NCBI GenBank assembly: GCA_948567375.1
Contig: OX419756.1
Span: 53,334,333 to 53,398,332, forward strand
DNA: 64,000 bases
Origin: Lunularia cruciata
Taxonomy: Eukaryota > Streptophyta > Marchantiopsida > Lunulariales > Lunulariaceae
Direction of reading: 5' to 3'
Position numbers and translations under genes: made by a program. Position 1 is the stretch's first letter. Every line of letters starts with the position of its first letter. Shown piece by piece: positions 10,735 to 62,052 of this stretch. The notes beneath the pieces were generated by a model that was given only the letters and a program-made list of their open reading frames with translations, made no database searches and was not told the origin of the DNA.

Positions 10735-11416
10735 TGTAATACCTAATTGTAAATGTGTGTGGCATTGTGATATTTAGCTTGGTATTACAAATACTTGAGA
10801 TATATTATTTATATAGAGATAAAGGATGGTTTTAGATTAGTCATGACTAGCAAAAGTTAGTCATAGCTAAGATAGAGGAACCTTACTTTAGAGGAAGTGA
10901 AAAAAATGAACACCAATATTCTAGTATGTTGACTTGGTATTATTCCTAAGTGTTTGGCTTTGAGGAAAAAGTTGAGAACTCTTGGGCCCGCAAACCTTTT
11001 TGTTTTGGATTCTTCTATAGTTTAAGGATAGCCCATGTGAAGGAATCCTTGACTTAGTGGTTGGGTCAAGATAAGACCACATGCTTTGGAGAATATTCCC
11101 ATGAGTATGGATATTCCTTTAGCTTTTTTACTTTATTTGACTTTTAGCCTAATAACTTGAGTTACTCCAAGAATTAATAACTTTTGTGCATAACTATTTC
11201 ATAAGTATTTAAAAAGGGGTGAGGAGGTTCTCATCATCCTTTCATTTGCAACTATCTCTCTCTTATTGAGTTGTCTAGTGAGCAATGTCTTGAGTCTTAG
11301 AGTGTTAGCCTTGGAAGACTCTGATGGAGTTGGAGTTCTTTGCCTTCTTAGTCCATGGTGCGTTACCATAATAGCCATCAGAGGTTCATCTTGAGTGAGA
11401 GATAGGCCGGATCACA
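10735..11416 (+). mobile_element. Family B solo LTR, copy B2
   Basis: A 682 bp match to the 33-722 copy with the same ends (TGTAATACC... to GGATCACA). The flanks GCTC and ATTC agree at only two of four positions, so the target duplication is decayed or lost. This copy shows a clear TATTTAAAAAGG box about 200 bases before its end. It lies in the gag region of element M. Confidence 0.82.
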
Positions 11417-11583
11417 ATTCTACACATGAAGTTTGAGAGTCTCTATCACCCGCATATGAGGTAGAAACCTCAACACCTAAATCTCATCTGCTTTGAGCTA
11501 TGGCAATGCTAGCCAATCTTTGCTCCAATTGCTCAATCTGAGTAACCATGGCTATATCAAAAGTAAGAGCAAGTATTGCACCC
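11417..11583 (-). pseudogene. Element M: gag N-terminal piece, between two insertions
   Basis: Minus-strand reading gives a coiled-coil-like block ...MVTQIEQLEQRLASIAIAQS. Heptad-like coiled coils are common near the gag N-terminus in this kind of element. It is bounded by solo LTRs A3 and B2. Confidence 0.45.
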
Positions 11584-15984: not shown

Positions 15985-16680
15985 CAAGCCACCCATGACA
16001 AGTACTCTACTCCACTCAAGACTTTGGATTTCTCAACTTGCTTTGGCTCTTTGCTTCTTACCTCTTCTACAAGAGCTTTACTCCAATGTCTTAATCTTCT
16101 AACTCTTAGAGGTTCTTCATCTGACTGGCCCCTTCTTCTTCTAATGGACTCACATTACTTACTTTTGCTACCGCAATAGCAACACTTTCTCTTCTGCTCC
16201 ACTGAACTTCTACTATTGGCTTGGCCTCCAAAGTTTTTGTTATTTCAGCAGGATGAAACTCCTTCTCTCCTTCCTCAGCATTGTCTCTACCTCATTGATG
16301 AACTTCTACCTCACCTTTGCTCCCATTGCTTGACTCTTCACTTTGCAATGTCAACTCTGGTTCTTCTTCTTCTTCCGAGCCTTCTTCCTTGCACTCAGCT
16401 TCACCTTTTGACTCTTCTGCTCTTGACAACTCATCAAGCACTACAACTTCTTGTCTTGGGAATACTTTCTGCACCCTCTTTGGCTTGATTGGCAAAAAAC
16501 TCTCCTCTGGGTGACTTTGCTTCTGTGTCTTTGGAATGGCCACCGCTACACTTAGATATTGCCTTGTGCACAAATAGTGCTTATCACTACTTTGGATCTG
16601 TCAAATATACTACTGTTCCTCACCATCTGCAGTCTTTCGTAAGTTGGAATGGAAATGCAACACAATCTTTCTTTGCTTAG
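15985..16680 (-). repeat. C' LTR, segment 2: middle of the U3 gene
   Basis: Minus-strand coding remnant with acidic, Ser-rich stretches (EAECKEEGSEEEEE near 16400-16360), matching the acidic part between the globular and coiled-coil regions of the U3 protein. It is cut at 16680 by the full C element. Confidence 0.75.
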
Positions 16681-17067
16681 TGTGGTGCACACATTTTCTG
16701 TTTTTTTTCAGAATAAAGGAGAAGAAGTGTATAGAGAAGTCGGATTGCGCCTATATGGCCAAAGAAGGCAAAGAAAAGAGTCTTTGGGATGAAAACCAAA
16801 GTAAAGTGACTTTGCGGCATAAGGCAAAGTATTCAGAAATGCCTTGTCAGCATACAACCCGAAGTAAATTGTCTTTGGATTGGGGGGAGCTCAACCCTAG
16901 GCAAAGATAGTCTAACAACCTTTTGTCGGGGTGAGAAATTCAAGAAGGAGCCGTTTGAAAACTGGCGGCTTATACACGTGAAGGTTGATTGACAATGACA
17001 AGTGCATGTTGGAGGGGTGATTTCTTGGTAGGAACTCAAAGTGACGGAAGACAAAGAAGCACAACTC

Positions 17068-17076
17068 TATAAAAAT
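17068..17076 (+). promoter_or_regulatory. TATA box for the U3 gene
   Basis: TATAAAAAT lies 165 bases before the ATG of the U3 coding region. The same box is at 27664-27672 in the 3' LTR. Equivalent boxes occur in the minus-strand LTRs of E, J and C'. This is a sequence match plus conserved position; transcription itself is inferred. Confidence 0.6.
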
Positions 17077-17232
17077 CAAAACTGCAACAACGAAATGTTG
17101 AGCAATTTTCCTTTGCCGTTGAGGAGTCGTCTTGTAGGTGATCGGGGAAAGGGAAATAGAGTTGGACTCGTGTTAGTGCGTAAGGGAGAAGTCGTGAGAG
17201 TGAAATCAAGAGAAAGTGAGAAAGTAGAAGAG

Positions 17233-19606
17233 ATGGGAGGAGGGAAGAAGAACTCCAAATTTGCAGTGAGAAATCATGCAATTTGGAGATTAGATGTGAT
17301 AGCGAGGATCAAAGTCTTGAACCAACTTCGGATCACCTTTGTAGCATGGAACTGGAATGTAAGTTTTCCAGGATTCATGACAGAAATCATTGAGAGCAAG
17401 TGTCTCGATGGACCCGAGGAAGAAGGGAAGAGAGGAAATCCGGCTCGCTGGACAGAGTCGGATTGGAGACTCGTACTCGGGAAGGAGGCAAGCTCGGAGC
17501 AGGGAGCCACGTTCTTGGGGAGAGGATAGATAGCCCAAGAGAATCAGGAGGTGAGAGATGCCTTCTTGTCGAAAAGAACAAAGAATAGGTACAAAGTTGA
17601 GAGTTACAAGGATCCAGTGAAGAGAGGGATCATGAGTGCTCTCATGGCAATCTTGAAGCCGGAGAGAACGACTTATGTGATGAAACACCAAGCGGTGTTC
17701 TTCCATGAGTTGTTTGCAGGAGAACCAATCAATTGGACGAGGTGTTTTCACGGAAGAACAAGGCAGATGGTGTGGAATTTGCGGGATAAGTTGCCTCCAC
17801 ACTATATTGTGCTGTTTGTAGCACACTTCTACCTCGGGCTCAATTTGCTGAGCTTGGCGGAGCGGACTTGGATGGTGTTGCACTTCCATCCTGATGTGCG
17901 AAAGGAGGTTGATGTCAAGGAGCAACAATACATTCTCCAAATCTGGAGCACGGATGACTACTATGCAAAGACAAGGAAGAACGTGGAGGTCACAGTGAGT
18001 ACCCCAACGAAGAAGAGGAGTTGGCAAGGAGAAGCCGAAGAAAGCAAGAAACCTCGGAAGATGCGGAGAAGTAACCCGAGGTGAGGAATGGTGGTAATTG
18101 AGTCAAAAGATGAAGACTCAAAAGGCAAGGCCGAGCTCAAAACGGAGGACTCGGAACATGAGGAGGAACCTAAGCTGACACTGCAGAGCACAGATACGAG
18201 TAGTGATAGTGAAGAAGGTGGAGAGATGACATCGGCACCAGCGGCTGACGAATACAAAGAAGAAGTGCAAGCGGAGATGGAAGCCAAAGACAACACACCG
18301 CTGGAGGATGTAAGGTGAAGTGTGAAGCGGGGCCGAGTAGAGTGAAGGAAGAGGTAGAAGAAAGCTCGGGCAGTGAGGTATCAATCCCGATACGAAGACT
18401 CTAGAGAAGAAGGCGAGTATCAGGAGAATACGAGGAGAGAAGAGAGACCACTCCGTGGGAGGAAGTAGTTGCCAATGATGGAGTGGAGTACCTGTGAGAG
18501 GTAGTGTGCCCATTGTTGGTGAAGTTGGAGCATAAGAAGAAGGAGATGCAGTCGACTTGTCCAGAGGTAAAGACTGTATTGCAGGTGGTAGTGAGATTAG
18601 AAGCAGAAAACTCGAAGTTGAAGAGGAGTGTAACCCGAGGTGAGGAGGAGAGAGAAGTACTGCAAGCAGAGGCAGTAGAGAGAAGTCAGGTAATTGAAGG
18701 CCTGAAGAGGGAAGTGAGCTATCGAGAGGATCTTGCGAGGAAGAGTGACATAGCAAGAGAGAGACAAGTAGCTGAATTCAAAATCTAGAAGCAGCAGTTT
18801 GCTGATTCAAGAGTAGAACTTATCCATGCTATGGCGAGGGTAGCAACAAAGGATCAAGAGCTCGATAGAGTGATGGAGAGTATGGAGAAGAAGAAGCAAC
18901 TCTGGCAACAAGAGTTGGCTGCACGGTAGAGAAGAAGAGAGATTGCGAGAGTTACTTTGTAATCAGGAAGAGAAGATTGAACAGAAGGAGAAGGAGAAGG
19001 AAACGGTGAAAGCCGAATTTGAGGCAGAGTTGGCAATGTACCAAGAGGAATGGCTTGCAGATTGGGAACGAGAAAGGAAGACAAGATTGAAGCTATTGAA
19101 GGAGATAGTCCTTAGGGTGAACGCGATGTTAAGTACAGAAGCCAGCGTTTGGATTGAAGAAGCGCGAGTGCACGAGTTGAAGTTGTTGGTGCAGGAGACA
19201 AGGCGCAGACAAGCAAAAGATACAAAGATGAATGCCTTGTTGATCAAATTAAGAACTCGTGTAGACAGAAAGGTTTTAGAGGTAGAGGATAACATTTCAA
19301 TTAGATTAGACTTAGTGAAAATAGAGCTAGAAAAACTTCGGAAGGATGTAAGAGCAAAACCCGAAGTAGATAACATAGGAGTCAAAATGTCTTCGAGTTG
19401 CCATCAGAGACATTAGAGAAGAGTGGGTCGGGAGATAAGGAGTTAGATAGATTATCCACTAGTGGAATTTCAGATCAGGAAGAGAATTGCTGGATCTGGT
19501 AGAAGAAGTAGGAGATCTGAAACCCGAGGACAGAGTAGTAGGAAGTAAAATTACTTCAGGTTCGGGTTTGAAAGCCAAAGAAGAAGTAGACATCGGATCG
19601 GATTAG
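17233..19606 (+). pseudogene. U3-encoded coiled-coil protein, 5' LTR copy
   Basis: About 790 codons within the LTR. The N-terminal part (to about 17980) is globular-looking, with blocks WTESDWRLVLGKEA, YKVESYKDPVKRG, MKHQAVFFHELF and LPPHYIV...HFYLGLNLL. A basic patch and an acidic/Ser-rich stretch follow (about 18000-18320). A long heptad-rich coiled coil runs from about 18510 to 19370, with a short acidic tail to 19606. I recognise no known family. The start is the ATG of MGGGKK, downstream of a TATA box and alignable in the 3' LTR; an upstream in-frame ATG at 17041 lies before that box. The frame is broken a handful of times. Confidence 0.7.
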
Positions 19607-19721
19607 TAACAGATTTGAGATTTGAAGAGGCAGATATGAAGAGGTGCATTGTCATTTTGGATCTGCAGGTTAGAATAGTTGTTGTAGAATGGTATAGTTG
19701 TTAGAACTGTTGATTGCTTCA

Positions 19722-19729
19722 CTATTTAA
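19722..19729 (+). promoter_or_regulatory. TATA-like box for the genomic transcript
   Basis: CTATTTAAG lies about 675 bases before the LTR end and about 115 bases after the end of the U3 coding region. The same box is at 31063-31070 in the 3' LTR. Its position suits the start of R and the genomic RNA. Confidence 0.55.
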
Positions 19730-20407
19730 GAGTGGCATTTGTAGTTAGATGTTGTTCAATGCTCATAATTTCTGAGAATAGATAAAGCAAAGTGCTGTGA
19801 AGCACTGCTTGTCGCTTGAGCTTGATTCCAAGTATCAACTTTGCAATTGTGTTTGTGAGTGTTTGGAGAAATTCGAAGGGCAAGTCAGTGTGCTTGTTGG
19901 ATGTTGGATTCCACAACCTTGATCTTCATTCCGTGTGTTTGATCCTGAGTGAAGTGCAATCAAAGCAATGCCTTGACAGATCTGAGAGGAATTGTAGTGT
20001 TGGTAGTATTCTGTATTTGTGAGTGCAGTGCGAAGTTGATGTGAAATAATTTTGATCAAGGAAGTTGTGCCTTCAGTGGAGGGGTGGAACACAATTCTGA
20101 GGCAAAGTCGTTTTGCAGTGAAGTGCCATTTTTGGGAGAGCCTGAATCATCACAATCAAGATTGTTTGGAAAGAATTGAAGGATTTGTGATTAAGGAGTG
20201 TGAATTTGTGACAAGACTGCAAATCAGTGCTTGTTACTCTCTTCTGGGTGTGGTTTCTACCTGAGAGATTAAAGACGCAACCAAGAAGAACTACATGATA
20301 CTATTTGACTTTGTATTTGGACATTTCTGACTAGTATCTCTGCGGGAACAAACTTGACTTACCCGATTACCGTAAAAGTGATATTTGCCGGGTTGTCACA
20401 TGATTTT

Positions 20408-20425
20408 TGGCGCCGCTGCCGGGGA
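20408..20425 (+). other. Primer binding site, tRNA-Asp-like
   Basis: TGGCGCCGCTGCCGGGGA begins seven bases after the 5' LTR. It is almost the TGGCGCCGTTGCCGGGGA motif common in Athila and allied plant Gypsy elements. Confidence 0.88.
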
Positions 20426-20488
20426 TACAAATCTTGGAAGTGGAATAATACAAAGCCAAATTGGAAACTGGGTATCAATGCAATATGA

Positions 20489-22831
20489 ATGTCTGCATCG
20501 AGAGAACAACGGGAAGAGAGGGCTCAAAGACAAGCACTTCAGCGTGAAGAAGATGAACGTCTAAACGTCCCATCCACTGTTGACGATACTGAACAAGAGG
20601 CGTTGGATTTTCAACTCCTTCACGAAGTGCAAGAAGCCCTGCGAGAACTTGACCATAAGAAACGCAAAGGCGGTTGGCAAGGCTACTTCACATCTCCCTC
20701 TTCTTCCAAGAAGAAGAAAGAATCGAGTGGGCAAACATATGCATTGCAGCCCAGTCCACCAACTTCCCCTAGAGCTTTAAAGGAAGTTGTTTCCTTGAAG
20801 AACTTTGTTTGAGAAAAGACAGCACGTACACTTACTGAAGACGAGTGTCAACATCTTCTATGAACAATTCCTTGGTTGTCCCGAAGGAATTTTGAAGAAC
20901 CAATCGAAGATGTTGATCCTAAATCTTCCACTCGGGTTGAAGTTGACACCCTCATAGCAGAAATTGTCGAAGAAGATCCCACCTTGAATTTGACAAATTG
21001 GAATCCCTGGTCTGACAACACGGCGTTAATACCAGCCAATTCTTCAGTTCCGTCAAGTTCAACACTACCTCAGCCGATCCCAGTGCATCAAACAATGACT
21101 TTGCTGCCTGTCACCCGACACGCCTATCAGAAGTACAAGGGGACAGAACAAGACAAAGACCCCGATGAATTCATTGAAGAATTCGAAGTCATCTCCTTTG
21201 CTAACAAGGAGCATGACTCGGCGGATCGACTGAGAATTTTCCCAAGTCTGCTCTGCAAGAAAGCTTGGAGCTGGTACACCCATGTGACCCATAAGGGGTT
21301 TGTACCAGCGGATTGGGCAGACTTGAGAAACAACTTCCTGGAACAATTCCGGGAAGTTGACTACGATATGAGTGTCTTTACGGCACTCAACGATTTGGAC
21401 CGTGGCAAGAAGGAGAAGTTGAGAGACTACTCTGAGCGGTTCATGGCACTACTGAAACGAGTTCCCAAGCAATCGGGGGTGGTGGGTTACTCCAATGCCC
21501 AAGCCATTACCTTGTTCCTCGGGGGCCTTTCACTAGAGATACAAATCTTTGCCAAGGAGAGGAATGTAACTTCCCTAGACAAAGTACTCAAACATGTCGC
21601 TCGTTATGAAGCGGCCCACTCTCACTTTGCCGGTAACCGGAGAAATCGGGAGAAGAAAGGTAAGAAGCCCTAAAGGAGAGCTTTGCGTAGCACCTCCCCT
21701 TCTTCGGACAAATCCTCTATGTCTTCAAGCTCTTCTTTGGAATCCAAAGAAGAATCAAAGCCAAGACGAGTCAGAAGATGTGGAGGCAAGAAACCAGTGA
21801 CTCCTCTTGCAAAGAGTGTACATAAGGCGGATACCAAGCTGGATGCCCTCATTAAGGAGTTTTTGGATTTCAAGATCCAGATGATTGGGGCCAAGGACCG
21901 AAGAAAGGCCCCAGCATTTGGACAATCTAATGTGTGGTGCACCGCATGTGGCAAATCTGGCCACGCCAACACAGAATGCAATACTCGTAATGCATTCCTG
22001 GTGCAGTAAATTGATTGGGTTCCGGGATGGAATCAAGACGAGGACGAAGAGGCGGTGTACCAAACTCAGGAAGTATAGCCCCAAGTGAGCACATTGTATC
22101 AAGGTCCAAGGTTTGGACCCAGGGAGTATAACTCCAATGCTCCTCCATGAAGACCACCAATGAGCAACCAAAATTGGCCTCTGAATGTTGCACTCGGAGC
22201 CTGTTATAATTGTGGCTCAATGGGACATTGGTCTCCAAACTGTCTCGAGCCAAGAAGGAAAATTAGGTACGTTCCCCTGTGCAGAAATTGTAAAGGATCG
22301 GGGCATATGGGCAACCAATGTCCTCACCCACCAAACCCGAAGCCACCTGTAAAGTATATACATACCCCCGCTGAGCGTGCAGCCCTTCAGCCAAAGGGGG
22401 ATACGAATGTAAATTGTATCACTCTTGAGGAAGAAAGACCTCAAGAAGGGAGTCCGGCCTCAGAAGGAGAATGGCCGGACCTTGAGATTTTGAAGGTTGA
22501 AACACACTCCAGTAAGAAGAAGCGTGATCCCAAAGAACTGAGTACGACCTCGTCATCTTCAAGAAAGGCAAAGAGACTACGCCCAAAAGCAATTCTTTTT
22601 GCTAAGGAGGAAAAGATCCTTGCAAAAGCGAAAGCTAAAGCCTTGCAGAAAGAACTAAAGGAGGCACTACTTAGGACTTGGGAACTGAGTTTGGAAGAGG
22701 AGACAAAGACAAAGTCTCCAATTTTTCTGGTGGACATCCGATCCGAAGTAAAGGGTCTGATCCAAGCCAAGGTGGGCCAACCCGAGGAACCTTGGGTCAA
22801 GGCCATCAGCAAGCCTGTCACCATTTTGTAG
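20489..22831 (+). pseudogene. gag of the full family C element
   Basis: An N-terminal charged region (20489-20812) is followed by the gag core in a 265-codon open stretch at 20876-21673 (RLRIFPSLLCKKAWSWYTH, then LRDYSERFMALL and FLGGLSLEIQ). Three CCHC knuckles come next: CTACGKSGHANTEC near 21945, CYNCGSMGHWSPNC near 22205, and CRNCKGSGHMGNQC near 22280. Most plant Gypsy gags have one or two knuckles. Lys-rich sequence follows to about 22830. Broken, with few breaks. Confidence 0.88.
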
Positions 22832-23860
22832 CATCCCGAAGTCAAGTGGGAACATGGAGAGACTTTGGACCCAAAGCCAAAAGCAAAGACGGTTAAATTG
22901 GGAGGAGTTCCCCAATATGATATTGTAGCAGATCTGGCCACCACAAATGCCAATGTTACATTCAAGCAATTGTGGGAAGATAACAAGCTGTACAAGAGAT
23001 AGCTGAATTTGGCCCTCAAGAAGGTGAGGTCGATGTCAAAGAAGGACCTGCCTGCTATTTATCGTATTAAACAAGAAGATTTGGGATCTCCCAAGGTAGA
23101 CGCGGAGATTGCAAGGTGCATGATCACATCGATACCCATTGACTCTGGGTCCGGTGTAAATGTCATGACCAAAGATACTGCAAATCGACTCGGGTATCAC
23201 ACTCGGGTATCACACGTTTGAACCAACATCCCGAGTGTTGAAGTTTGCAGACCAAACCAGGAGACGGCCATTGGGCATGCTGTCAAACATTACCACGATC
23301 ATTGGAGGGGTACCCTTCAAGTTGAATTACATCGTGTTGCGACCAGTGACAAAAACTTGTTACCCTTTGTTGATCGGCAGACCCTGGTTGTACAGTGCCC
23401 AAGTTGTGGTGGATTGGCATCAACAGAAGTTAAGATTCAAGGACATTTCGTCCAAAGATTAGAAGCTGGTGACTGTGAGTTGGACGAAGGTTCCCCATCT
23501 TGAGGAAACAAGTTTGTCAGAAGAGGAGGACGAATCCGAAGACTCATTGTCTTTGTCCTCAGACGAATCCGAAGATGAAGTCCAAGTTAATTACTTGGAA
23601 TGCTACGAGGTGGATGTTGAAGACAAAGATCCATATGACCTTGCCTTGGGTGAACCTGACTTGGAGGAAGGGGGTTTGATGGCCACTCGCCTCGGGTTAA
23701 GCCGAGTAAGCCACGTTGAAGGAGTCATCAACCCCGACGACTATCAAGATGTTTTATTAACTGAAGGAAAAATTTTAAAAATCTCAAAGACAGTTACTTT
23801 GGAGGAGTTGGCAGGATACACTGCCCTGTTTATAGAATTACAGGATGTATTTGCCTAGTC
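22832..23860 (+). pseudogene. Protease region of the full family C element
   Basis: The retropepsin active-site block IPIDSGSGVNVM is near 23137-23172, and the end-of-domain block PLLIGRPWLYSAQVVVDW near 23362-23420. An acidic linker (SEEEDESEDSLS and following) leads to reverse transcriptase. Broken. Confidence 0.85.
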
Positions 23861-25200
23861 GATTGATCAAATGCCGGGTATTCCACGAGAATTCGGAGAA
23901 CACCGGATTGATCTGATTGAAGGTGCAATTCCGGTTCGGCAGCAACAATACCATCTGAACCCAAAGTACTCACTTTTGGTGAAAGATGAAATCAATAAGT
24001 ACTTAGGGGCTGGAATCATCTTCCCTGTCTTAAGCAGTGAATGAGTCTCCCCCATTGTCATTGTCCCAAAGAAGAAAATAGGGAAGATCCGAGTGTGCCA
24101 AGACTTTCGGAAGTTGAACGCAATCACAAGGAAAGATCATCATCCCTTGCCTTTTACCGATACAATTTTAGATCAGGTAGCTGGACATCCTTGTTATAGT
24201 TTTCACTTGGATTTTCAAGGTACAATCAAGTATCCATTCAAGAAGAAGACAAGGATAAAACTACATTCACGACCAATTGGGGCACTTTTGCTTACAATCA
24301 AATGCCCTTTGGGTTGTGTAATGCTCCCTCTACTTTCCAGCGGATGATGAATTCCATCTTCAAAGATTTCATGCGCAAATTTGTGGAAGTTTTTATTGAT
24401 GACTTTTGTGTGTTTGGGCGAAGAGATGTACATTTAGATTACCTTTGCCAAAAGTTTGAAAGGAGTCATTTTGCCAGCTTGTCATTACACCCGGAGAAAT
24501 GCTTCTTCGCAATGAAGGAGGGAATACTTCTGGGGCATCGGGTGTCAAGCCAAGGTATTGAAGTCAATGTCGAGAAGGTCAAGATAATCACAGCTTTGGA
24601 ATCCCTGAAGAAAATTTGGGAGCTGAGAGCCTTCTTGGGACATGTTGGATATTACAGATGCTTTGTGTCAAACTATGCATTGCTTGCTGCACCACTTTCA
24701 AAGCTTCTGAAGAAATCCGAAGACTATCTGTGGGAAGCAAATCAAGAAGAAGCTTTTAAGGTGTTGAAGAAGAAACTGGTTGAAGCACCAGTCATGAGGG
24801 CCCCAAATTGGGACGTCCCTTTTCATGTATATGTGGACACTTTGTCCATGGCCATCGGAGTTGTCTTAAGTCAGAAGGACGAGAAGAAGAAGGACTACCC
24901 GGTGTATTATGCCAGCCGACAACTTTCAGTTTCTGAAAAAAAACTATTCAACGACTGAAAGAGAAGCACTCAGAATGGTGTATGCCTGTAAGAAATTTTG
25001 TCATTATTTGTTGGGGTATGAGTTTGTCTTCTATGTGGACCATTATGCATTGCAACATTTGGTCAAGAAGGCAGATTTATCGAGACGAATTGCAAGATGG
25101 ATCTTGTTATTACAAGAGTTCACGTATACTGTACAAGTAAGGAAGGGAGCTTCGCATTCGAATGTGGACTTCCTGTCCAGGTTAGAAACTCAAGACCAGG
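23861..25200 (+). pseudogene. Reverse transcriptase and RNase H of the full family C element
   Basis: Readable blocks are VCQDFRKLNAITRKDHHPLP near 24096, MPFGLCNAPSTFQRMM at 24302, VEVFIDDFCVFG (catalytic Asp-Asp) near 24386, and LGHRVSSQGIEV near 24531. RNase H follows: VPFHVYVDTLSMAIG near 24818, YYASRQLS near 24904, TEREALRMVYACKKF near 24955 and the end block HSNVDFLSRL near 25156. There is no second, archaeal-type RNase H. A few breaks. Confidence 0.9.
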
Positions 25201-27265
25201 AGTGGGAAATAGATAATTGGTTCCCTGACGAAGAGTTGTATCACTTATCAGCAATGCGAAGTACAAGGTATGCAGCTGAATATAATTATCTGAATACTCT
25301 CCATTGTCATGAGGGGATGGACCCGGAACAGCGGGCAGTCTTTCTCAGGAAAATGGGGCCGTACCAGCTTAAACACAACATTTTATTTAAGATGGGCGAA
25401 GACAAAGTACTTTGTCGATGCTTAGAGTCATATGAAGTAGGAGGAGTAATTGAATATTTACACCCCAAAGCATCGGAAGGACACTATGCTCTGAAGAATA
25501 TTGTAAAGAAAATTCTTTTGGCAGGGTATTGGTGGCCTACAATGTACAAAGATGTACATGCTCATATCCAAAGCTGTGATGCTTGTCAGAGAACGGGGAA
25601 ACCGATGACTACTTCTCAATGGCCTTTGAGACCAATTTTGCCTTTGGCCCCATTTGAGAAATGGGGGATTGATTTTGTGGGTCCCATTCAACCAGTGACC
25701 TGAGTCACAAGAAAGCAATACATTTTGGTTTGCACTGACTATGCTACCAAGATGGTCAAAGCGGAAGCAACTCGTAGACATGATGCTGAAACTGGCGGAA
25801 TTCTTCTTTTGAAACATCATCTCCCGATATGGGTGTCATGTGGAATTGGTCAGTGACCAAGGAACACATTTTTTGAACTTTGTAATGGAGGCGTTAACCA
25901 AGTACTTTCAGATTAAACATCGGAAGATGACTCCTTATAACCCAAAAGCAAATGGCTTAACGGAAAAAGCGAATGGGTTACTTTGTAAAATTTTGAATAA
26001 GGTGACTGTCAATTATGCATATGATTGGGATACGAAATTACCAGCCACGTTGTGGGCATATCAAAGGACAGAGAAGATTACAACCAAACAAACTCCATAC
26101 TTCTTGACATATGGCTTGCATCCCATACTGCCAGTTGAATTTGAAGTGCCGATATATCGGGTTTTGTGTTGTGAGCCGGCCTGTCTCTCACTCAGGATGA
26201 ACCTCTGATGGCTATTATGGTAGCGCACCATGGACTAAGAAGGCAAGGAATCTCAACTCCATCATACTCCTCCAAGGCTAACACTCCAAGACTCAAGACA
26301 TTGCTCACTAGAGAACTCATGAGAGAGAGATAGTTGCAAATGAAAGGATGATGAGTACCTCCTCACCCCTTGTTTATATACTTGTGAAATAGTTACGTAC
26401 CAAAGTTACTAAATACCGTAGTAACTCAAGTTACTAGACTAAAAGTCAAGTAAAGTTAAAAAGTAGAAAGGAATATCCATTCACATGGGCATATTCCCCT
26501 AAGCATGTGGTCTTATCTTGACCCAACCACTAAAGCAAGGATTCCTTCACATGGGCTGTCCTTGGACTAAAGAAGAATCCAAAACAAAAAGGCTTGCGGG
26601 CCCAAGAGATCTCAACTCTTTCCCCAAAGCCAAACACCTAGGAATAATACCAAGTCAACACACTAAAATCCAAAATAGTGGTGCTCATCTTTTCTACTTC
26701 CTCTAAAGTAAGGTCCCATCTATCTTAGCTATGACTAACTTTAGCTAACCATGACTAATATAGAACCATCCTTTATCTCTATATAAATAATATCTCTTAA
26801 GTACTTGTAATACCAAGCTAAATATCACAATACCACACACATGCACAAATGGGTGTTACAGTGCAAAGAACAAATGTCGGAAGAAGAAAGTCAGGATCTT
26901 CGGATTCATCAACTGATGTGGTTAGAAGAGAAAAGAGACGATGCAATGCAAACCACAAAAGAAGTACAAGCACAGAGGAAAGTCAGGCATGATAAGAGAA
27001 TCAAGCCTGTGACTGTATGAGAAGGAGATTTGGTTTTGTTATATGATAATTGCCGAATATTTTTTCCAGGCAAGTTGCATTTGAGATGGATGGATCCCCA
27101 TCGAGTTCTTTATCTTTACAAAAATGGATCCATGCAGCTCGTCGACTTGGAAGGTAATCCTTTTGCCACTCAAGTAAATGGGTGGAGAGTTTGGCGATAT
27201 TGGACCATAGACTCGGAAGTTTCTAAGACACCCGAGGTCTATGTTTGCGGGGATGCTCACATTTG
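25201..27265 (+). pseudogene. Integrase of the full family C element, split by B3
   Basis: The HHCC finger region ends in CDACQRTGK near 25580. The core has FEKWGIDFVGPIQP near 25660, LVSDQGTHFLN near 25842 and TPYNPKANGLTEKANG near 25930 (D, D, E positions). After the B3 insertion the C-terminal part resumes (GKLHLRWMDPHRVLYLY near 27070, then VNGWRVWRYW), ending just before the purine tract at 27265-27275. No chromodomain follows. Few breaks besides the insertion. Confidence 0.9.
26170..26860 (-). mobile_element. Family B solo LTR, copy B3
   Basis: A 691 bp reverse-complement B LTR (TGTGAGCCGG...GTGTTACA) in the integrase of the C element. The flanks GTGT/GTGC form a 4 bp duplication with one mismatch. 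It is nearly identical to B4, so it is recent relative to its host. Confidence 0.88.
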
Positions 27266-27828
27266 AGGGAGGGGGTATGTAGTGCCCACATTTTTATTTT
27301 TTTTCAGAATAAAGGAGAAGAAGTGTATAGAGAAGTTGGATTGCACCTGTATGGCCAAAGAAGACGAAGAAAAGAGTCTTCGGGATGAAACCCAAAGTAA
27401 AGTGACTTTGGGTCATAAGGCGAAGTAGTCGGAAATGCCCTATCAGCATACAACCCGAAGTAAATTGTCTTTGGATCGGGGGGAGCTCAACTCGAGGCGA
27501 AGACAGTTTAACAACCTTTCGTCGGGGCAAGAAATTCAAGAAGGGACCGTTTGAAAACTGGCAGCTCATACGCGTGAAGGTTGATTGACAGTGACAGGCG
27601 CATGTTGAAGGGGTGATTTCTCGGTAGGAACTCAAAGTGACGGAAGACAAAGAAGCACAACTCTATAAAAATTGAAACTGTAACGATGAAATGTCAAGCA
27701 ATTTTCCTTCACCATTGAGGAGTCATCTTGCAAGTGATCGGGGAAAGGGAAATAGAGTTGGACTCGTGTTAGTGCACAAGGGAGAAGTCGCAAGAGTGAA
27801 ATTGAGAGAAAGTTAGAAAGTAGAAGAG

Positions 27829-30800
27829 ATGGGAGGAGGGAAGAAGAACTCCGAATTCGCAGTGAGAAATCATGCAATTCAAAGATTAGATATGATAGCG
27901 AGGATCAAAGTCTTGAGCCGACTTTGGATCACCTTTCTGGCATGGAACTGGAACGTAAGTTTTCCAAGATTCATGACAGAAATCATTGAGAGTAAGTGTC
28001 TCGATGGACCCGAGGAAGAAGGGAAGAGAGGAAATCCGGCTTGCTGGACAGAGTCGGATTGGAGACTCGTACTCGGGAAGGAGGCAGGCTCGGAGCAGGG
28101 AGCCATGCTTTTGGGGAAAGGAGAGATAGCCCAAGAGACTCAGGAGGTGAGAGATGCCTTCTCTTTGAAAAGAACAAAGAATGGGTACAAAGTTGAGAGT
28201 TACAAGGATCTAGTGAAGAGAGGGATCGTGAGTGCTCTCATGGCGATCTTGAAGCCGGAGAGAACAACTTATGTGATGAAACACCAAGCGGTGTTCTTCC
28301 ATAAGTTGTTTGTAGGAGAACCAATCAATTGGGCGAGGTGTTTTCACGGAAGAACAAGGTAGATGGTGTGGAATTTGTAGGATAAGTTGCCTCCACACTA
28401 CATTGTGCCATTTGCAACACACTTCTACCTTGGGCTCAATTTGCTGAACTCGGCGGAGCGGACTTGGATGGTGTCGCACTTCCATCTTGATGTGCAAAAG
28501 GAGGTCGATGTCGAGGAGCAGCAATACATTCTCCAAATCCGGAGCACAGACGACTACTACGCGAAGACAAGGAAGAACGTGGAGGTCGCAGTGAGTACCC
28601 CGACAAAGAAGAGGAGTCGGCAAGGAGAAGCCGAAGAAAGCAGGAAACCTTGGAAGATGCAGAGAAGTAACCCGAGGTGAGGAATGGTGGTAATTGAGTC
28701 AGAAGATGAAGACTCAGAAGGCAAGGCCGAGCTCAAAACAAAGGACTCAGAACATGAGGAGGAACTGTGAGCCGGCCTGTCTCTCACTCAGGATGAACCT
28801 CTGATGGCTATTATGGTAGCGCACCATGGACTAAGAAGGCAAGGAACCCCAACTCCATCATACTCCTCCAAGGCTAACACTCCAAGACTCAAGACATTGC
28901 TCACTAGAGAACTCAATGAGAGAGAGATAGTTGCAAATGAAAGGATGATGAGTACCTCCTCACTCCTTGTTTATATACTTGTGAAATAGTTACGTACCAA
29001 AGTTACTAATTACCATAGTAACTCAAGTTACTAGACTAAAAGTCAAGTAAAGTCAAAAAGTAGAAAGGAATATCCATTCACATGGGCATATTCCCCTTAT
29101 CTTGACCCAACCACTAAAGCAAGGATTCCTTCACATGGGCTATCCTTGGACTAAAGAAGAATCCAAAACAAAAAGGCTTGCGGCCCCAAGAGTTCTCAAC
29201 TCTTTCCCCAAAGCCAAACACCTAGGAATAATACCAAGTCAACACACTAAAATCCAAAATAGTGGTGCTCATCTTTTCTACTTCCTCTAAAGTAAGGTCC
29301 CATCTATCTTAGCTATGACTAACTTTAGCTAACCATGACTAATATAGAACCATCCTTTATCTCTATATAAATAATATCTCTTAAGTACTTGTAATACCAA
29401 GCTAAATATCACAATACCACACACATGCACAAATGGGTGTTACAGAACCTAAGCTGACACTGCAGAAGCAGAGATACAAGCAGTGATAGTGAAGAAGGTG
29501 GAGTGAAAACATTGGTGCCAGCGGCAGACAAATACAAAGAAAATGTGCAAGCCGAATTAGAAGCCAAAGACAACACAGCGCTGGAGGACAAAGTACCGTT
29601 GCTAGAGGATAAGAAGATCGCAATACAATGAGGAGTTCGCTCGTGACGTAAGGCAAAGTGTGAAGCGGGGCCGAGTAGAGTGAAGAAAGAGGTAGAAGAA
29701 AGCTTGGGCAGTGAAGCATCAATCCCGATATGAAGACTCCAAAGAAGAAGGTGAGTATCAAGAGAACACAAGGAGAGAAGAGAGACCACTCCGTGAGAGG
29801 AAGTAGTTGCCAGTGATGGAGTGGAGTACCTGCAAGAGGTAGTGTGCCCATTGTTGGTGAAGTTGGAGCATAAGAAGAAGGAGATGCAGTCGACTTGTCC
29901 AGAGGTAAAGACTGTATTGTAGGTGGTAGTGAGATTAGAAGCAGAAAACGTGGAGTTGAAGAGGAGTGTAACCCGAGGTGAGGAGGAGAGAGAAGTACTG
30001 TGAGCTGAGGCAATAGAGAGAAGTCAGGTAATTGAAGACTTGAAGAAAGAAGTGAGCTATCAAGAGGATCTTGCGAGGAAGAGTGACATAGCAAGAGAGA
30101 GACAGGTAACTGAATTCAAAATCTTGAAGCAGCAGTTTGCTGATTCAAGAGTAGAACTTATCCATGCTATGGCGAGGGTAGCAGCAAAGGATCAAGAGCT
30201 CAATAGAGTGATGGAGAGTATGAGGAGAAGAAGCAACTCTGGCAACGAGAGTTGGCTGCACGGTATAGAGAAGAAGAGAGATTGCGAGAGTTACTTCGTT
30301 ATCAGGAAGAGAAGATTGAACAGAAGGAAAAGGAGAAGGAAACGGTGAAAGCCAAATTCGAGGCAGAGTTGGCAATGTACCGAGAGGAATGGCTTGTAGA
30401 TCGGGAACAAGAAAGGAAGACAAGATTTGAGCCATTGAAGGAGATAGTCCTCAGGGTGAACGCGATGTTAAGTACAAAAGCTAGCTTTCGGATTGAAGAA
30501 GCACGACTGCACGAGTTGAAGTTGTTGGTGCAGGAGACAAGGCGCAGACAAGCAAAAGATACAGAGATGAATGCCTTGTTGATCAAATTAAGAACTCATG
30601 TAGACAAAAAGGTTTAAGAGGTAGAGGATAACATTTCAATTAGATTAGACTTAGTGAAAATAGAGCTAGAAAAACTTCGGAAGGATGTTAGAGCAAAACC
30701 CGAAGTAGATAACATAGGAGTCCAAATGTCTTCAAGTTGCCATCAGAGACATTAGAGAAGAGTGGGTCGGGAGATAAGGAGTTAGATAGATTACCCACTA

Positions 30801-30946
30801 GTGGAATTTCAGATCGAGAAAGAGAATTGTTGGATCTGGTAGAAGAAGTAGGAGATCTGATACCCGAGGACAGAGTAGTAGGAAGTAAAATTACTTCCAG
30901 TTCGGGTTTGAAAGCCGAAGAAGAAGTAGACATTGGATCGGATTAG
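27829..30946 (+). pseudogene. U3-encoded coiled-coil protein, 3' LTR copy, split by B4
   Basis: Same layout as the 5' LTR copy: TATAAAAAT at 27664-27672, ATG at 27829 (MGGGKKNSEF), blocks WTESDWRLVLGKEAG and YKVESYKDLVKRG, a 177-codon open stretch to 28362, then a basic and acidic part. After the B4 insertion a coiled coil rich in Glu/Lys/Arg runs to about 30720, with an acidic tail ending near 30946. Without the insertion the region is about 2.4 kb, or about 800 codons. No known family recognised; nuclear or chromatin roles would be pure guesswork. Broken a handful of times. Confidence 0.7.
28766..29444 (-). mobile_element. Family B solo LTR, copy B4
   Basis: A 679 bp B LTR flanked by a perfect 4 bp duplication GAAC (28762-28765 and 29445-29448). 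The uninterrupted 5' LTR has GAAC once at the matching place (near 18161). It lies in the acidic part of the U3 gene. Confidence 0.92.
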
Positions 30947-31740
30947 TAACAGATTTGAGATTTGAAGAGGCAGATATGAAGAGGTGCATTGTCATTTTGG
31001 ATCTGCAAGTTAGAACAGTTGTTGTAGAACGGTATAGTTGTTAGAACGGTCGATTGCTTCACTATTTAAAAGTGACATTTGCAGTTAGATGTTGTTCAGT
31101 GCTCATAATTTTTGAGAATAGATCAAGCAAAGTGCTGTGAAGCAATGCTCGTCGCTTGAGCTTGATTCCAAGTATCAACTTTGCAATTATGTTTGTGAGT
31201 GTTTGGAGAAATTCAAAGGGCAAGTCAGTGTGCTTGTGGGATGTTGGATTCCACAGCCTTGATCTTCATTCCGTGTGTTTGATCTTGAGTGAAGTGCAAT
31301 CGAAGCAATGCCTTGACAGATCTGAGAGGAATTGTAGTGTTGGTAGTATTCTGCATTTGTGAGTGCAATGCAAAGTTGATGTCAAGCAATTTTGATCGAG
31401 GAAGTTGTACCTTTAGTGGAGGGGTGGAACACAATTCTGAGGTGAAGTTGTTTTGCAGTGGAGTGCCATTTTTGGGAGAGCCTGAATCATCACAATCAAG
31501 ATTGTTTGGAAAGAATTGAAGGATTTGTGATTAAGGAGTGTGAATTCGTGACAAGACTGTGAGTCACTGCTTGTTACTCTCTTCTGGGTGTGGTTTCTAC
31601 CTAAGAGATTAAAGACACAACCAAGAAGAACTACATGTTACTGTTTGACTTTGTATTTGGACATTTCTGACTTGTATCTCTGCGGGAACGAAGTTTACTT
31701 ACCCGATTACCGCAAAAGTGATATTTGCCGGGTTCTCACA

Positions 31741-32968
31741 CTTAGACTCCTTCATCAAGTTCAATCTGAAGTAGAAATGGGCAGCAAACGGCATTAGATA
31801 ATGAAATGCATCTTGTTGTCTCCAACATCACACCATCTTCCATGTTCTTTGTTGAAAACACTTTGCCCTATTTACTGGTGCACTTGCAAACATCTAGTGG
31901 AAGAAGACCGCCTGATGATTCATCACATAAGTCGTGCAATTGGGCTTAAAAAGTGCCATCATTGCCCCAAAAATGCTTTGCCTGACTGGGTCTTGATAGG
32001 TATCCACCTTGTACCTATTCTTTGTGCGCGGTGATGTAAAGGAATTTTGAATCTCATCCGTCTCCTCCGCAAACTCTCCTTTTCCAAGAAAGGTAGCCGT
32101 AGTTTCTTCACGGGCCTCTCTCCCCAACACCAATCTCCAATCCGCCTCTGTCCATCAAGCCAGATTGCCTCTCTTTCATTCACCCTCAGGTCCTTCCTTA
32201 CAATCACTTGAGGCTACTTCAGCCATGAACCCTAGAAAGCCCAAATTCCAGTTCCATGTTAGAAAAGTAATCCAAAGTCTACTTAGGATTTCAATTTGAG
32301 CTATCATATCTAATCTTCAAATCATTGGATTTCTTACTATGAGCGAAGGACTCTTATTCTCACCCTTCTTTGGCATTATGTGATCTCTAGTGCATGGTAA
32401 TTGAAAGAGGATTATACCGTCCCCTAGTCTCAAAATCCTCACTCCTTCAACCTTGATAAACATCAAACACTCAATCGGCTTCTCTACAGGCACTCCTTTG
32501 GATCGACTACTCATTGGCGTAGGATACTTGCATGACATTTCACAATCTCCTTGAGGAAGTCCTAAATTTATAGTTCCTTGTTGATCAGCCATTCCTTTGC
32601 TACTTGTCACTAAAACGCACCCTTTCTGCATGACTTCCTCTTGGCATTATACAAGTTAAGTGGTTTGTGCCTTGTCCGCCATCTTTTTGCCTGTACTTTC
32701 TTCATTTGCCTCTACAAAGAGAAGTCATTATGTTGTCTTTGCTTTGGGTCGATCACCTCGAGATGAAGTCCCCTTACTTTGGGCCTCTCTTGGCCGGTTC
32801 TGATCTAAGTACTTTGTTTTGGACTCAGAGTTACGTTTGTTCAGGTTTCAACCCAAAGTCATGCTTCTTTGCCTTCTACTGCCATTTGGGTTCAATACAA
32901 CTTTGTCTATACACTTCTTCTTCAAAACTGCACATAAATGATCAAAACCAAAAAATATGGGTACCAAA
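31741..32968 (-). repeat. C' LTR, segment 3: start of U3 and N-terminal part of its gene
   Basis: The first five bases (31741-31745) are the target duplication of the C element. Minus-strand remnants match the U3 protein N-terminal part (KNRYKVDTYQDPVRQ, TTYVMNHQAVFFH between 32030 and 31890). A TATAAATT box on the minus strand at 32572-32565 precedes it. The LTR start is GGTACCCATATTTTTTGG on the minus strand, ending at 32968. Confidence 0.8.
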
Positions 32969-39960: not shown

Positions 39961-40189
39961 GTCCATCTAGGTTGATTGGATAGTGACTTTATCCCTTATG
40001 CAAAAAAGGTAGAAATCTAGGGGATTAGTGCTAAGGGATTTTGTGATTGGTGATTTGAGAATGTGGGCTCGGAAATCTGCATTTCCGAGATGATTTTCTA
40101 TCATAAAAAATAATTTTTGTAGAAATAACATCCATTGAGTGAGTTTTCCTTCACTGCAAGGGTTATTGATGAGGTATTTAAGAGCCTCA
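39961..40189 (-). pseudogene. Element D: end of RNase H, cut by E
   Basis: Minus-strand reading EALKYLINNPCSEGKLTQW, then LFLQK and NADFRAH, matches the end of Gypsy RNase H (ALxYL...RWxLLLQEF...NADxLSR). It is truncated at 40189 by the 3' LTR of E. Confidence 0.75.
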
Positions 40190-40985
40190 TGTGACAACCC
40201 GGAAAATATCACTTTTGCGGTAATTAGATAAGTAAAGTTTGTTCTCAAAGAGATACAAGTTAGAAATGATCAAATACAAAGTCAAACAATAACAAACATG
40301 GTTCTTCTTGATTTCTTCTTTAATCTCTTGGGTAGAAACCACACTCAAAAGAGAGTAACAAGTACAAGATCACAATCTTGTCACAAATTAACAATTCTTA
40401 ATCACAACTCATTCAAACAAATCTTGATTGTGATGATTCTGATTCATATTCCTCCAAAGACTGCTACTTCATTGCAAAACACCTTTGCTTTAGAATTGTG
40501 TCCCAGCCCTCCACTAAAGGCACAACTTCCTCAGTCAAAATTGCTTACATCAACCTTGTGCTGCACTCACAACTACAGAATACTACCAACACTACAATTC
40601 CTCTTAGATCTATCAAGGCATTGCTTCAATTGCTATCCACTCAAGATCAAACACACAAAATGAAGATCAAGGTTGTGGAATCTAACATCCAACCAACACA
40701 CTGACTTGCACTTTGAATTTATCCACACACTCACAAAAAAATTATAGGATTGATACTTGGAATTAAGCTCAAGCAATGAGCATTGAAGTCAACACTTCAC
40801 TTTATCTATCTTCAAAAATTACAAATATTGAACACCATTTAACTGCAAAGGTTTCCTTTAAATAGGCAGAGCTTTTGTAAGTTAACTAACTAAAATACCA
40901 TTCTACAACAACTTTACCAACCTATAGATCCAAAATGACAATGCACCTCTTCATATCTGCCTCTTGAAATCTCAAAATTGTCTCT

Positions 40986-43675
40986 ACTCCGATCCGATGT
41001 CAACGTCAAGTTTTGCTTCTAAACTTGATGATCCTCCTATCACTTCTCCTTCTTTGGTTTTATCTAACTCTACTCTATCCTCCTCTAATTGTATCACTCC
41101 CCTACTAAAATCTCCAATTACAACCATGGGTAATCTATTATGTCACTATTTTGCAACCCACTCTTCTTGAATATATCAAACCATTGATTCACAGACACTT
41201 GCACACCAATGTCGGCTACTTTAGACTTTGTGTCTAACTTCATCTTACTACAAAGTCTCTCTTATTCTAAATGTACTAAATCTAATCTAAGACACACATT
41301 GTCCCCTACCTCTAACATCTTCTTATCTACTCAATTTCTCAAGCAAATCAAAAACTTATTCAACGCAATGCCTTTCACTTTCTTCCTCCTTGTTTCTTGC
41401 ACTAGCAATTTCAATTCATGCATTCTTGCTTCTTCTAATTGAACCTCAAACATCATGCCAAGCATTGCCTTCACTCTTACTACTACCTCTTCAATTATCT
41501 CCCACCTTGGCATCTGCACTTCTCTCTCTTTACTAATAACTCCTCATAATACATCTTCACCTCATCTTCCAACTTGGCCTTCAATGCTTCCTTCTCCTTC
41601 ACACTCTGTCTGAATTGTTCTTCCATTCCTCTGACCAACCCATGCAGTCACTCTTCTTCACAATCTCGTGTAGCTAACTTCCTTTGCCAAGCCCGATCTT
41701 TCTCTACCGCACTTGTCTTAAAGCTCTCCAACTTTTGTCCCTTAACATCAGCCATGGCCTTCAAATGGATGACTTCCACTAGCGTATCATGCACTTCTGC
41801 CCTCAAGGCCTCAATCTTCACCAACAGCTCCTTCTGATCTTCTTCTTGCTTTGTCATAGCTTTGCATCTTTTCACAAAGTCTTTCATCAGGCTCTCAATC
41901 TCCTTCCTCCTCAACTCTACATCAATCATGAGTTCTACTAATTCACGCTCTCCACAAATTAACTTTCTCCACAAATTAACTTTCTCCTCAACTCCAAATT
42001 ATCATCACTCATATACTGCACTATTGCAATTCATCTTTCACATTTGAGTGATCTCTCTTCAACTCTTCTCTCTTCTTTTGAAATTGCAGTAGCAAAGGAA
42101 AAACTATTTGCGACAAGTATTCTACCCCATCAAAAACTCATAAGCTCTCAGATTTTTCTCTCCTTACTTTGTCTACTAGAGCTCTACTCTGAAGTCTTAA
42201 TCTTCTAACTCTCAAGGGCACTTCATCTGGTGTATCTCCCTTCTCCACTACCGGGCTTACATTACTCGCTTCTGCCCCCATAGTAGAAACACTCCTTCTC
42301 TACATTTACCCCTCTGAACTTCCGACTTTGGCTCAACCTCAAGTTTCTTCTATCTCCGTGCTTGGAAATTCTTGACACATGTTACCACCTTGCACCATAC
42401 AATCAATTGCCACATGAAACTCCTACTCTTCCTTGTCAGCATTGTCTTCTCCTTGTTGCTGAACTTCTACCTCTCCTTCACTTCCACTGCTCAACTCTTC
42501 ACTTTGCAGCATCAACTCCGCTTCTTCTTCTTCTCTCAAGTCTTTTGTCTTATACTCAGCTTTGCTTTTGAAATTTTTTGCTCCCAACAACTCATCAATC
42601 ACTATGACCTCTTGCCTTAGGTTCATCTTCCTCCTCTTGGATGAGCTGGTCTCTCACTCAGGATGAACACCTTGTGGCTATTATTGTAGTGCACCATGGA
42701 CTAAGAAAGCAAGGAACCCCAACTCCATCATACTCCTCCAAAGCTAACACTCCAAGACTCAAGACATTGCTCACTAAAGAACTGAATGAGAGATAGATAG
42801 TTGCAAATGAAAGGATGATGAGTACCTCCTCACCCCTTATTTATATACTTGTGAAATAGTTACACACTAAAGTTACTATTTACTATAATAACTCAAGTTA
42901 CTAGGCTAAAAGTCAAGTAAAGTCAAAAAATATAAAGGAATATTCATCCACATGGGCATATTCTACTAAGCATGTGATCTTATCTTGACCCAACCACTAA
43001 GTCAAGGATTCCTTCACATGGGTTATCCTTGGACTAAAGAAGAATCCAAAACAAAAAGGCTTGTGGGCCCAAAAGTTCTCAACTCTTTCCTCAAAGCCAA
43101 ACACCTAGGAATAATACCAAGTCAACACACTAGAATCCAAAATAGTGGTGCTTATCTTTTCCATTTCCTCTAAAGTAAGGTCCTCACTATCTTAGCTATG
43201 ACTAACTTTAGCTAATCATGACTAATGTAGAACCATCCTTTATCTCTATATAAATAATATCTCACAAGTATTTGTAACACCAAGCTAAATATCACAATAC
43301 CACATACAAGCACAAATGGGTGTTATAGGTCCGATAGGTATCAAATTTGTACCCATTCTTTGTGCATGGCACCATGAAGGAATTTCAAATTTCATCCATC
43401 TCCTCCATAGACTCTCCTTTGTCGAGAAACGGTGCTCCAATTTCCTCCTCCAACTCTCTTCCCAATACCAATCTCCAATCCGACTCTGTCCATTGAGCCG
43501 GATGGCCTCTATTCCCTTCATTCTTAGGTCCTTCCTTACAATAACTTGAAGTTACTTCTACCCCAAACCCTGAAAAACTCAAGTTCCAATTCCATGCCAG
43601 AAAAGTGATCCAAAGTCTATTCAGTACTTTGATCTTGGCTATCATATCTAACCTTTGAATAATCGGATTTCTCAC
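40986..43675 (-). pseudogene. U3-encoded coiled-coil protein, element E copy
   Basis: The N-terminal part at 43675-43385 has ITFLAWNWNLSFSGF and WTESDWRLVLGREL, as in the C element. It is followed by B5 and a loss of the middle of the globular part. The acidic part (EEEEAELMLQSEE near 42540) and coiled coil (41974-41331, with HELKLLVQETRRKK) remain. It ends near 40986. Broken many times. Confidence 0.65.
42642..43327 (-). mobile_element. Family B solo LTR, copy B5, at a deletion
   Basis: About 686 bp matching the other B copies, with slightly eroded ends (TGAGCTGG... to ...GTGTTATA). The flanks do not match. Compared with the C element LTR, a few hundred bases of U3 between the two flanks are missing. 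That explains the absent target duplication. Confidence 0.82.
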
Positions 43676-43689
43676 TGCAAGTGAGAAAT

Positions 43690-43726
43690 TAACTCCTTTA
43701 ACTCCTTTAACTCCTTTAACTCCTTC
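43690..43726. repeat. 9 bp microsatellite
   Basis: AACTCCTTT repeated about four times, in the U3 of E upstream of its gene. Probably replication slippage. Confidence 0.85.
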
Positions 43727-44242
43727 AGATTGTTAAATATCCAACTCTCAATTGGCTTGGCTATAGGCACTCCTTTGGGTCAACTACTCAGTGGCTTAGT
43801 ATACTTGTATGACATTTTGAAATCCCCTTGACAAAGTTCTGATTTTATAGTTCTTTGTTGATAAGTCATTCCTCTGTCCATCTTCACTAAAACTCACTCT
43901 TTTTGCATGAATTCATCTTGGTATTATCCAGGTTAGTAGTTTGAGCCTTGTCTGCTGTTTTCTTGCCTGTCCTTTCTTGATTGACCCATCCAAAGGGAAG
44001 TTGTTACACCATCTTTGCATTGGGTTGATCACTCCAAGACAAAGTTCCCTTGCTTTGGGTTTCTTTGGCCAGGTCTGATTTGAGTACTTTACTTCTGACA
44101 CAAAGTCACTTTACTTTGGGTTACAAACCAAAGACACAATTCTTCTCCTTCCAATGCCATTTGTGTTCAATATGACTCTGTTTGTACACTTCTTCTTCAA
44201 AATAGAACAAAACTTATAAAAGCAAAAAATGTGGGTACCACA

Positions 44243-61874: not shown

Positions 61875-62044
61875 TTTACGCTGTTGGAAGATCAGCCCCT
61901 CTCTTGGACGAGACACTCTAAATCCCTCAGGGTTTCGGAAAATTTCACTCTCGACGGGCTTTCGGACACACATTACTGCAGGACAACTACTCAAAGGAAT
62001 TGGAAATTTACTCAGCAAATTCAACTTCCCCTTGCGCAATTGCA

Positions 62045-62052
62045 ATTTTATA
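62045..62052 (-). promoter_or_regulatory. TATA box for the U3 gene, element J
   Basis: TATAAAAT on the minus strand, 171 bases upstream of the ATG at 61874. The spacing is close to the 165 bases in the C element, although the surrounding DNA has diverged. Confidence 0.6.

Follow-up and report, generated by a model that had tools for sequence, protein, structure and literature searches.

Within a 64,000-nucleotide stretch of the Lunularia cruciata genome (contig OX419756.1, positions 53,334,333 to 53,398,332; hereafter the window), densely nested long terminal repeat (LTR) retrotransposons include one complete Ty3/gypsy element, element C (16681-31740), with a long reading frame in the U3 region of its LTRs. 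We consider it likely that this Ty3/gypsy family carries in its U3 a genuine accessory gene, about 857 codons long, which was kept by purifying selection while families diverged and has decayed in many copies. A preliminary description of this DNA had placed an element-encoded protein gene inside U3, and the coding signal found there is indeed far beyond chance. Its product is most likely an accessory protein containing a coiled coil, and probably a regulatory one. In element C, whose features given here are all on the plus strand, the U3 gene occupies 17095-19606 of the 5' LTR and 27691-30946 of the 3' LTR, in the latter from an ATG conserved across the family to a TAG stop (30944-30946), close to where a stop had been proposed. 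The frame lies wholly between the LTR start and a downstream TATA-like box (TATA2), which sets the putative U3/R border, and it covers about two thirds of the 3.78-kb LTR.

The frame emerges from an alignment of 26 family LTRs, each more than 3.7 kb long, namely the 5' LTR of element C (C5) and 25 of the 29 complete LTRs from a fetched set. That set holds 38 extra genome copies, the 40 best-scoring matches minus the two in the window, and is not a random sample; a script rule recovered both LTR ends in 29 of the 38, including one LTR (L013) without the CA end. From C5 LTR position 415 (17095, or 27691 in the 3' LTR) the alignment continues for 857 codons without a majority stop and then reaches two consecutive stops, while the other two frames have at least 54 and 40 majority-stop positions over the same span. 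Differences at the three codon positions of the family C open reading frame (ORF) are 0.085, 0.070 and 0.121 (325 pairs, 26 copies), with a third-position excess in all five segments; the comparison regions give 0.077, 0.088 and 0.094 (R-U5) and 0.108, 0.074 and 0.083 (leader) over the same pairs. A chance open frame is rejected by the majority-stop test, by these codon-position differences and by the ratios of nonsynonymous to synonymous change (dN/dS) given below. A gene on the opposite strand of the LTR is also rejected, the longest antisense ORF among 29 LTRs being 297 amino acids.

Homologous U3 frames are present in at least three other LTR families of the window, all on the minus strand. 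The E3 LTR (58719-62425) has its U3 gene from 62018 to about 59518, in a single frame across 722 codons, stop codons aside; its partner LTR is probably outside the window, at about 71-72 kb. In the E2 LTR (40187-44242), the N part of the gene (43690-43331) and the C part (41704-41187) are interrupted by a 680-bp repeat. The E4 LTR (32968-31741, continuing at 16680-12473) has the N half of the gene in 31741-32968 and the rest at 16666-16319 and 13938-13276, split between two places because element C inserted inside it; the insertion site within the E4 gene is flanked by 32364-31741 and 16666-16319. Protein identity among the homologous frames amounts to 51-60% over the N domain and to 27-55% over the middle and C-terminal parts, and a carboxy end of the form LEKSG.G ... 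VDI is common to the families, as is the TAG stop.

We estimated dN/dS by the Nei-Gojobori method on the N domain, skipping stop columns (1-7 per pair). For C5 the values are 0.245 against E3, 0.214 against E4 and 0.421 against E2; for the 3' LTR of element C (C3) they are 0.252, 0.175 and 0.433, in the same order; and among the other families they are 0.175 (E3-E4), 0.193 (E3-E2) and 0.272 (E4-E2). All nine between-family pairs, which are not all independent, thus range from 0.175 to 0.433. The C5-C3 pair, LTRs that diverged only after insertion, gives 0.497, with even codon-position counts of 22, 19 and 22. In the coiled-coil part dS is saturated. Homologues in at least three families, with such low N-domain ratios, indicate that the U3 gene was under purifying selection.

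Several observations weigh against this interpretation. Not one of the 26 aligned LTRs keeps a whole frame, each having 3-11 stops (median 5), although a frame-breaking indel is absent in 10 of them; dS between families is high (0.73-1.9), with stop codons skipped; no named relative of the protein appears in Pfam or protein searches; and the AlphaFold model of the N domain, at a predicted local distance difference test (pLDDT) score of 33, is useless. The element C copy is dead in both LTRs. From 27691 onward, 12 in-frame stops precede the terminal one in the 3' LTR, 11 of these past 27829; the frame there also shifts near 30222 and 30728 and is split by a 680-bp repeat at 28766-29445. By alignment, the 5' LTR frame has 5 stops and 4 frame-breaking indels. 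The gene of about 800 codons first proposed from this copy is recovered as the 857-codon frame of the family, but not as a continuous ORF in element C itself.

Whole frames do exist elsewhere in the genome. We searched the 565.8-Mb assembly with an unbroken 177-amino-acid stretch of the N domain that begins at the ATG at 27829 (27829-28359) and scored the best 150 of 19,809 first-look candidates, which amount to neither a copy count nor a random sample. Seven of these 150 have an uninterrupted U3 frame of 868-879 codons with a match free of stops, a length consistent with the 857 codons and roughly 21 more ahead of them; one further row with 875 codons was left out of the seven, as a TAG lies inside its match. 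Most of the 150 are broken, and together with the 26 of 26 broken aligned copies and the missing database relative this would suit a fossil, that is, a gene captured by an ancestral LTR, now functionless and carried along by amplification. Such a history is nevertheless very improbable, since the third-position excess in family C, the dN/dS of 0.17-0.43, the conserved carboxy end and the seven whole frames need constraint up to amplification.

The location of the gene inside the LTR depends on where the LTR ends are drawn. Element C is flanked by an identical 5-bp target-site duplication (TSD), CTTAG, at 16676-16680 and 31741-31745, and its two LTRs are 91-92% identical, with TG...CA ends. The 5' LTR (16681-20400) measures 3720 bp, in keeping with the 3.7 kb first given for each LTR, whereas the 3' LTR (27278-31740) reaches 4463 bp because the 680-bp repeat has inserted into it. 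A site resembling a primer-binding site (PBS), TGGCGCCGCTGCCGGGGA, recognized by sequence alone, follows the 5' LTR at 20408-20425; ARAGORN did not find tRNA genes. A polypurine tract (PPT), GAGGGAGGGGG, precedes the 3' LTR at 27265-27275 and overlaps the integrase stop, TGA, at 27264-27266; a PPT also stands immediately before the LTR in E2 and E3. Between the LTRs are gag (20876-21673; Retrotrans_gag, E 3.3e-10), zinc knuckles (22160-22831), a reverse transcriptase (RT)/RNase H part (24302-24958) and RNase H followed by the integrase zinc-binding domain (24909-25703; E 8.3e-11). The Pfam order is gag, RVT_1, RT_RNaseH and Integrase_H2C2, the Ty3/gypsy order; the rve integrase core alone falls below the Pfam cut-off. 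The TG...CA LTRs, short TSD, PBS-like site, PPT and domain order all agree with a Ty3/gypsy element. Its RT is closest, among the matches listed (120 of 580), to named liverwort proteins, from Marchantia polymorpha (62%), Riccia fluitans (51%) and Calypogeia fissa (50%), which points to a probable liverwort host.

With these borders, the U3 gene begins about 415 nt into the LTR, past the PPT, and so does not lie between pol and the 3' LTR; it is on the sense strand relative to gag-pol, not antisense to it. If the LTR borders were wrong, the frame could be the tail of pol, as the preliminary description had itself considered, or else an internal gene located after pol and ahead of the 3' LTR. 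However, the integrase frame ends at a stop of its own ahead of the LTR start, the coding pattern occurs upstream of gag as well as past pol, in repeats with TSD, PBS and PPT, and solo LTRs hold the frame between matching TSDs, which contradicts any such misplacement. We therefore reject misplaced borders or a pol tail, and give this explanation next to no credence.

The spacing between the U3 N domain and RT across the genome also speaks for the U3 gene; the counts are minimum numbers, from pairs picked by eye against a list of 150 RT places. The N domain lies 2831-2842 nt downstream of RT in at least 11 genome copies and 7054-7128 nt upstream in at least seven, with one more at 7855. In element C the downstream distance is 3527 nt, or 2835 once a 692-bp insertion is subtracted. 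At least one of the seven whole frames stands at the 3'-LTR distance from an open RT frame. Nested insertion is common in the window, and the frame could on that account be an independent mobile element or a host gene recently inserted into one LTR. That four or more diverged LTR families carry this gene at the same position argues otherwise, as does the near-constant distance from RT in the pairs examined, and we see only a slim chance of so recent an arrival.

Solo LTRs are common in the fetched sample, and each carries the gene region, as had been anticipated. Nine of the 29 complete LTRs are solo by identical 5-bp TSDs and lack PBS or PPT, and seven more are solo by TSDs with one mismatch. 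A PBS follows four of the 29 and a PPT-like tract precedes eight (five by script pattern, three by eye), while two fit none of these classes. In the aligned solo LTRs the gene region is decayed. One fetched LTR (L031) is both preceded by a PPT-like tract and followed by a PBS, the arrangement that unequal recombination into a tandem LTR-body-LTR-body array would give, and one solo LTR (in L011) sits inside the U3 gene of another, diverged copy.

Whether the U3 gene has its own promoter turns on two TATA boxes, both found where they had first been described. TATA1 (TATAAA) is at 27664-27669, with its 5' LTR copy at 17068-17073. TATA2 (TATTTAA), the putative promoter for genomic RNA, is at 31063-31069, with its 5' LTR copy at 19723-19729, and is identical in seven of seven LTR ends of the window. 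A single TATA[AT]A occupies the corresponding position in each U3 leader of C5, C3, E3, E2 and E4, and TATA1 thus recurs in all four families although the leader otherwise diverges; within family C it is kept in 27 of 29 LTRs. From this recurrence, we regard a promoter of the gene's own as plausible, and hold that view with slightly more belief than doubt.

The ATG formerly taken as the start, at 27829, is present, but the conserved start in C is 46 codons upstream, at 27691, only 27 nt from TATA1. It is the first ATG past TATA1, at 27 nt, in 20 of 27 family LTRs. Frame-specific similarity in the start region favors the ORF frame for E3-E4 (z 4.1 versus 1.6 and 0.2), E3-E2 (9.4 versus 3.2 and 2.3) and E3-C5 (4.6 versus 0.1 and 1.4); E2-C5 has no preference, and E4-E2 and E4-C5 are not clearly discriminating. 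The longer stretch to the second ATG again favors the ORF frame for E3-E4 (8.1 versus 0.9 and 0.9) and C5-E3 (3.9 versus 1.8 and 1.5). In the 99 nt upstream of the TATA-proximal start, the ORF frame is best in none of six family pairs, the close pair E4-E2 being high in all three frames. Because similarity of this kind begins beside TATA1 and is absent in the 99 nt upstream, the ancestral start was probably nearer 27691 than 27829.

Other features of the start region speak against an own promoter and a start beside it. The distance from TATA1 to the start is 27 nt in C and 34 nt in E2, E4 and, to a non-ATG codon, E3, leaving almost no leader. At the conserved start E3 has no ATG; the next one in frame comes 79 nt past TATA1. 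An earlier ATG is found at 19 or 22 nt in six of the 27 LTRs, and in one the next ATG is at 165 nt. For the stretch 27691-27829, C5-E4 favors another frame (z 3.4 versus 1.5 for the ORF frame). TATA2, a point against the wider interpretation, is inexact in nine of the 29 fetched family LTRs, being exact in 20. A spacing of 27-34 nt is too short for an ordinary leader, and the next in-frame ATG (27829 in C; 79 nt downstream in E3) would fit better. Where C, E3 and E4 have that second in-frame ATG, the E2 copy lacks it and has a 9-bp tandem repeat (43689-43725).

The main competitor to an own promoter is a real U3 gene without one: placed last, at the 3' end of the genomic RNA, it would be translated from a subgenomic RNA that begins at TATA2 of the 5' LTR and is spliced, as are nef and sag in retroviruses. 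TATA1 would then be incidental and solo LTRs silent for the gene. The U3 gene follows pol in the same sense and is hence inside the genomic RNA, TATA1 is merely 27-34 nt from the start, and a splice-acceptor-like tract (a pyrimidine tract plus AG) is seen at the U3 start in C5, C3 and, by simple pattern, 12 of the 29 family LTRs. A spliced env-like RNA has been reported for barley Bagy2 (PMC7264820). On the other side, the acceptor-like pattern was not found in 17 of the 29 LTRs, TATA1 is present in all four families despite the diverged leader, and every one of the 29 LTRs has 3-7 ATGs from the U3 start to the ORF. A TATA1 RNA would mostly avoid these upstream ATGs, which therefore disfavor a long unspliced leader and mildly favor TATA1. 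Overall, we think expression through splicing rather unlikely.

For a U3 gene with its own promoter, we propose the following model. The PPT, the plus-strand primer site, stands upstream of the gene, so that reverse transcription would copy the gene into both LTRs. Transcription would most likely start at TATA1, a short way ahead of the frame, and terminate within R of the same LTR, making each LTR a self-contained gene. RNAs that end before TATA2, an expectation attached to the earlier proposal, are not needed, as a TATA1 transcript could equally end in R. It is tempting to speculate further that every LTR is a stand-alone cassette of promoter, 857-codon gene and terminator, and that a dispersed family, with many members solo, supplies the protein in trans or is open to host recruitment after loss of the element body. 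This would be a land-plant counterpart of retroviral LTR genes with their own U3 promoter; we put forward the cassette as a serious possibility, at a little under even chances.

In the predicted product, an N domain of some 300 residues is followed by a charged linker and a coiled-coil-like C part. The linker is acidic in one family copy (L009) and nearly balanced in E3, and heptad periodicity of the C part is supported in both (p 0.007 for L009; 0 of 300 shuffles for E3). The highest 19-residue hydropathy is 1.32 in L009 and 1.77 in E3, with charged residues within, and no clear membrane segment is apparent. Two N pieces of the protein have no Pfam match at E<=1; below the cut-off there are only a frataxin-like match for one of five members of alignment A1 (E 0.23) and, for a C piece, one to PcRGLX_3rd (E 0.02). 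Neither the E3 frame (674 amino acids, X at stops) nor alignment A1, as queries against a protein database, returned a relative at E<=0.001, within length limits and with exact-word seeding that could miss distant ones; the same database returned liverwort RTs when queried with the RT of element C. Because the structural model is of no use, any role is read from composition. It may be that the product acts as an oligomeric regulatory protein for element RNA or against its silencing, a role we suggest tentatively and with more doubt than belief.

Plant LTRs are usually treated as regulatory DNA, with accessory ORFs described between them, and for this reason standard annotation could miss a gene in U3. 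LTR-encoded genes occur in animal retroviruses, among them sag of mouse mammary tumor virus, nef and the 3' genes of foamy viruses. The present gene resembles these in being an accessory frame in U3, and thus in both LTRs and in solo LTRs. It differs in belonging to a plant Ty3/gypsy element, whereas sag and nef come from animal retroviruses, are of smaller size and are made from other or spliced transcripts; the likeness drawn here is one of layout. Like the env-like and other internal accessory ORFs of plants, it is an additional sense frame that follows pol of a Ty3/gypsy element, but unlike the env-like ORFs of the internal region, it is past the PPT, inside the LTR, and has no clear membrane segment.

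Maize Grande gene23 and Retand TRP28 are antisense accessory ORFs in the internal region of plant gypsy elements (PMC7264820, PMC11963269), and gene23 is reported to have its own promoter and to encode a nuclear protein (PMC7264820). The U3 gene is likewise an accessory gene of a plant gypsy element, but is sense and in the LTR, with no significant Pfam match. Retrosat2, RIRE3 and RIRE8 likewise combine long LTRs, of about 3 kb or more, with an extra ORF; this ORF0, of unknown function, precedes the gag-pol ORF within the internal region and so is outside the LTR (PMC3485330). CERV of Cer1 in Caenorhabditis elegans has a predicted coiled-coil-forming domain and a modeled role in genomic RNA export; it differs in coming from a spliced five-exon mRNA with exons in the gag frame and, in the portion available, is not placed in an LTR, and we claim no homology (PMC10309623). 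CERV and gene23 may serve as functional models, not relatives, of the U3 protein. Additional ORFs are described in the internal region only in the available text of PMC7264820, and likewise between the LTRs in that of PMC11963269 and PMC3485330. A literature search, outside which most subscription papers fell, had no plant retrotransposon with a gene in its LTR among the matches listed. One phrase, 'gene within the LTR', in the excerpt of PMC1560396 refers to a host gene that sits within a maize retrotransposon rather than in an LTR, and was set aside.

Solo-LTR formation is a usual route by which genomes lose elements; if the U3 gene is expressed, that route would spare the genes, and a selfish element would retain its trans-acting protein at very many loci. 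The gene also lends itself to two questions: how selection works on a gene when a solo copy could provide it, and how displacement of the PPT can bring a gene inside an LTR.

The repeat that splits the U3 gene in the 3' LTR of element C (TGTGAGCC...GTTACA; 28766-29445, about 680 bp) has other copies of about 690 bp at 26170-26861, 42636-43332, 28-726 (minus strand) and 10733-11424 (minus strand). This solo-LTR-like repeat has five copies in the 64 kb of the window, three of them within elements C and E2. Lastly, a tandem array of 92/117-bp units (57618-58718) fills the gap between the end of a C-like LTR (56443-57616) and the end of the E3 LTR at 58719.

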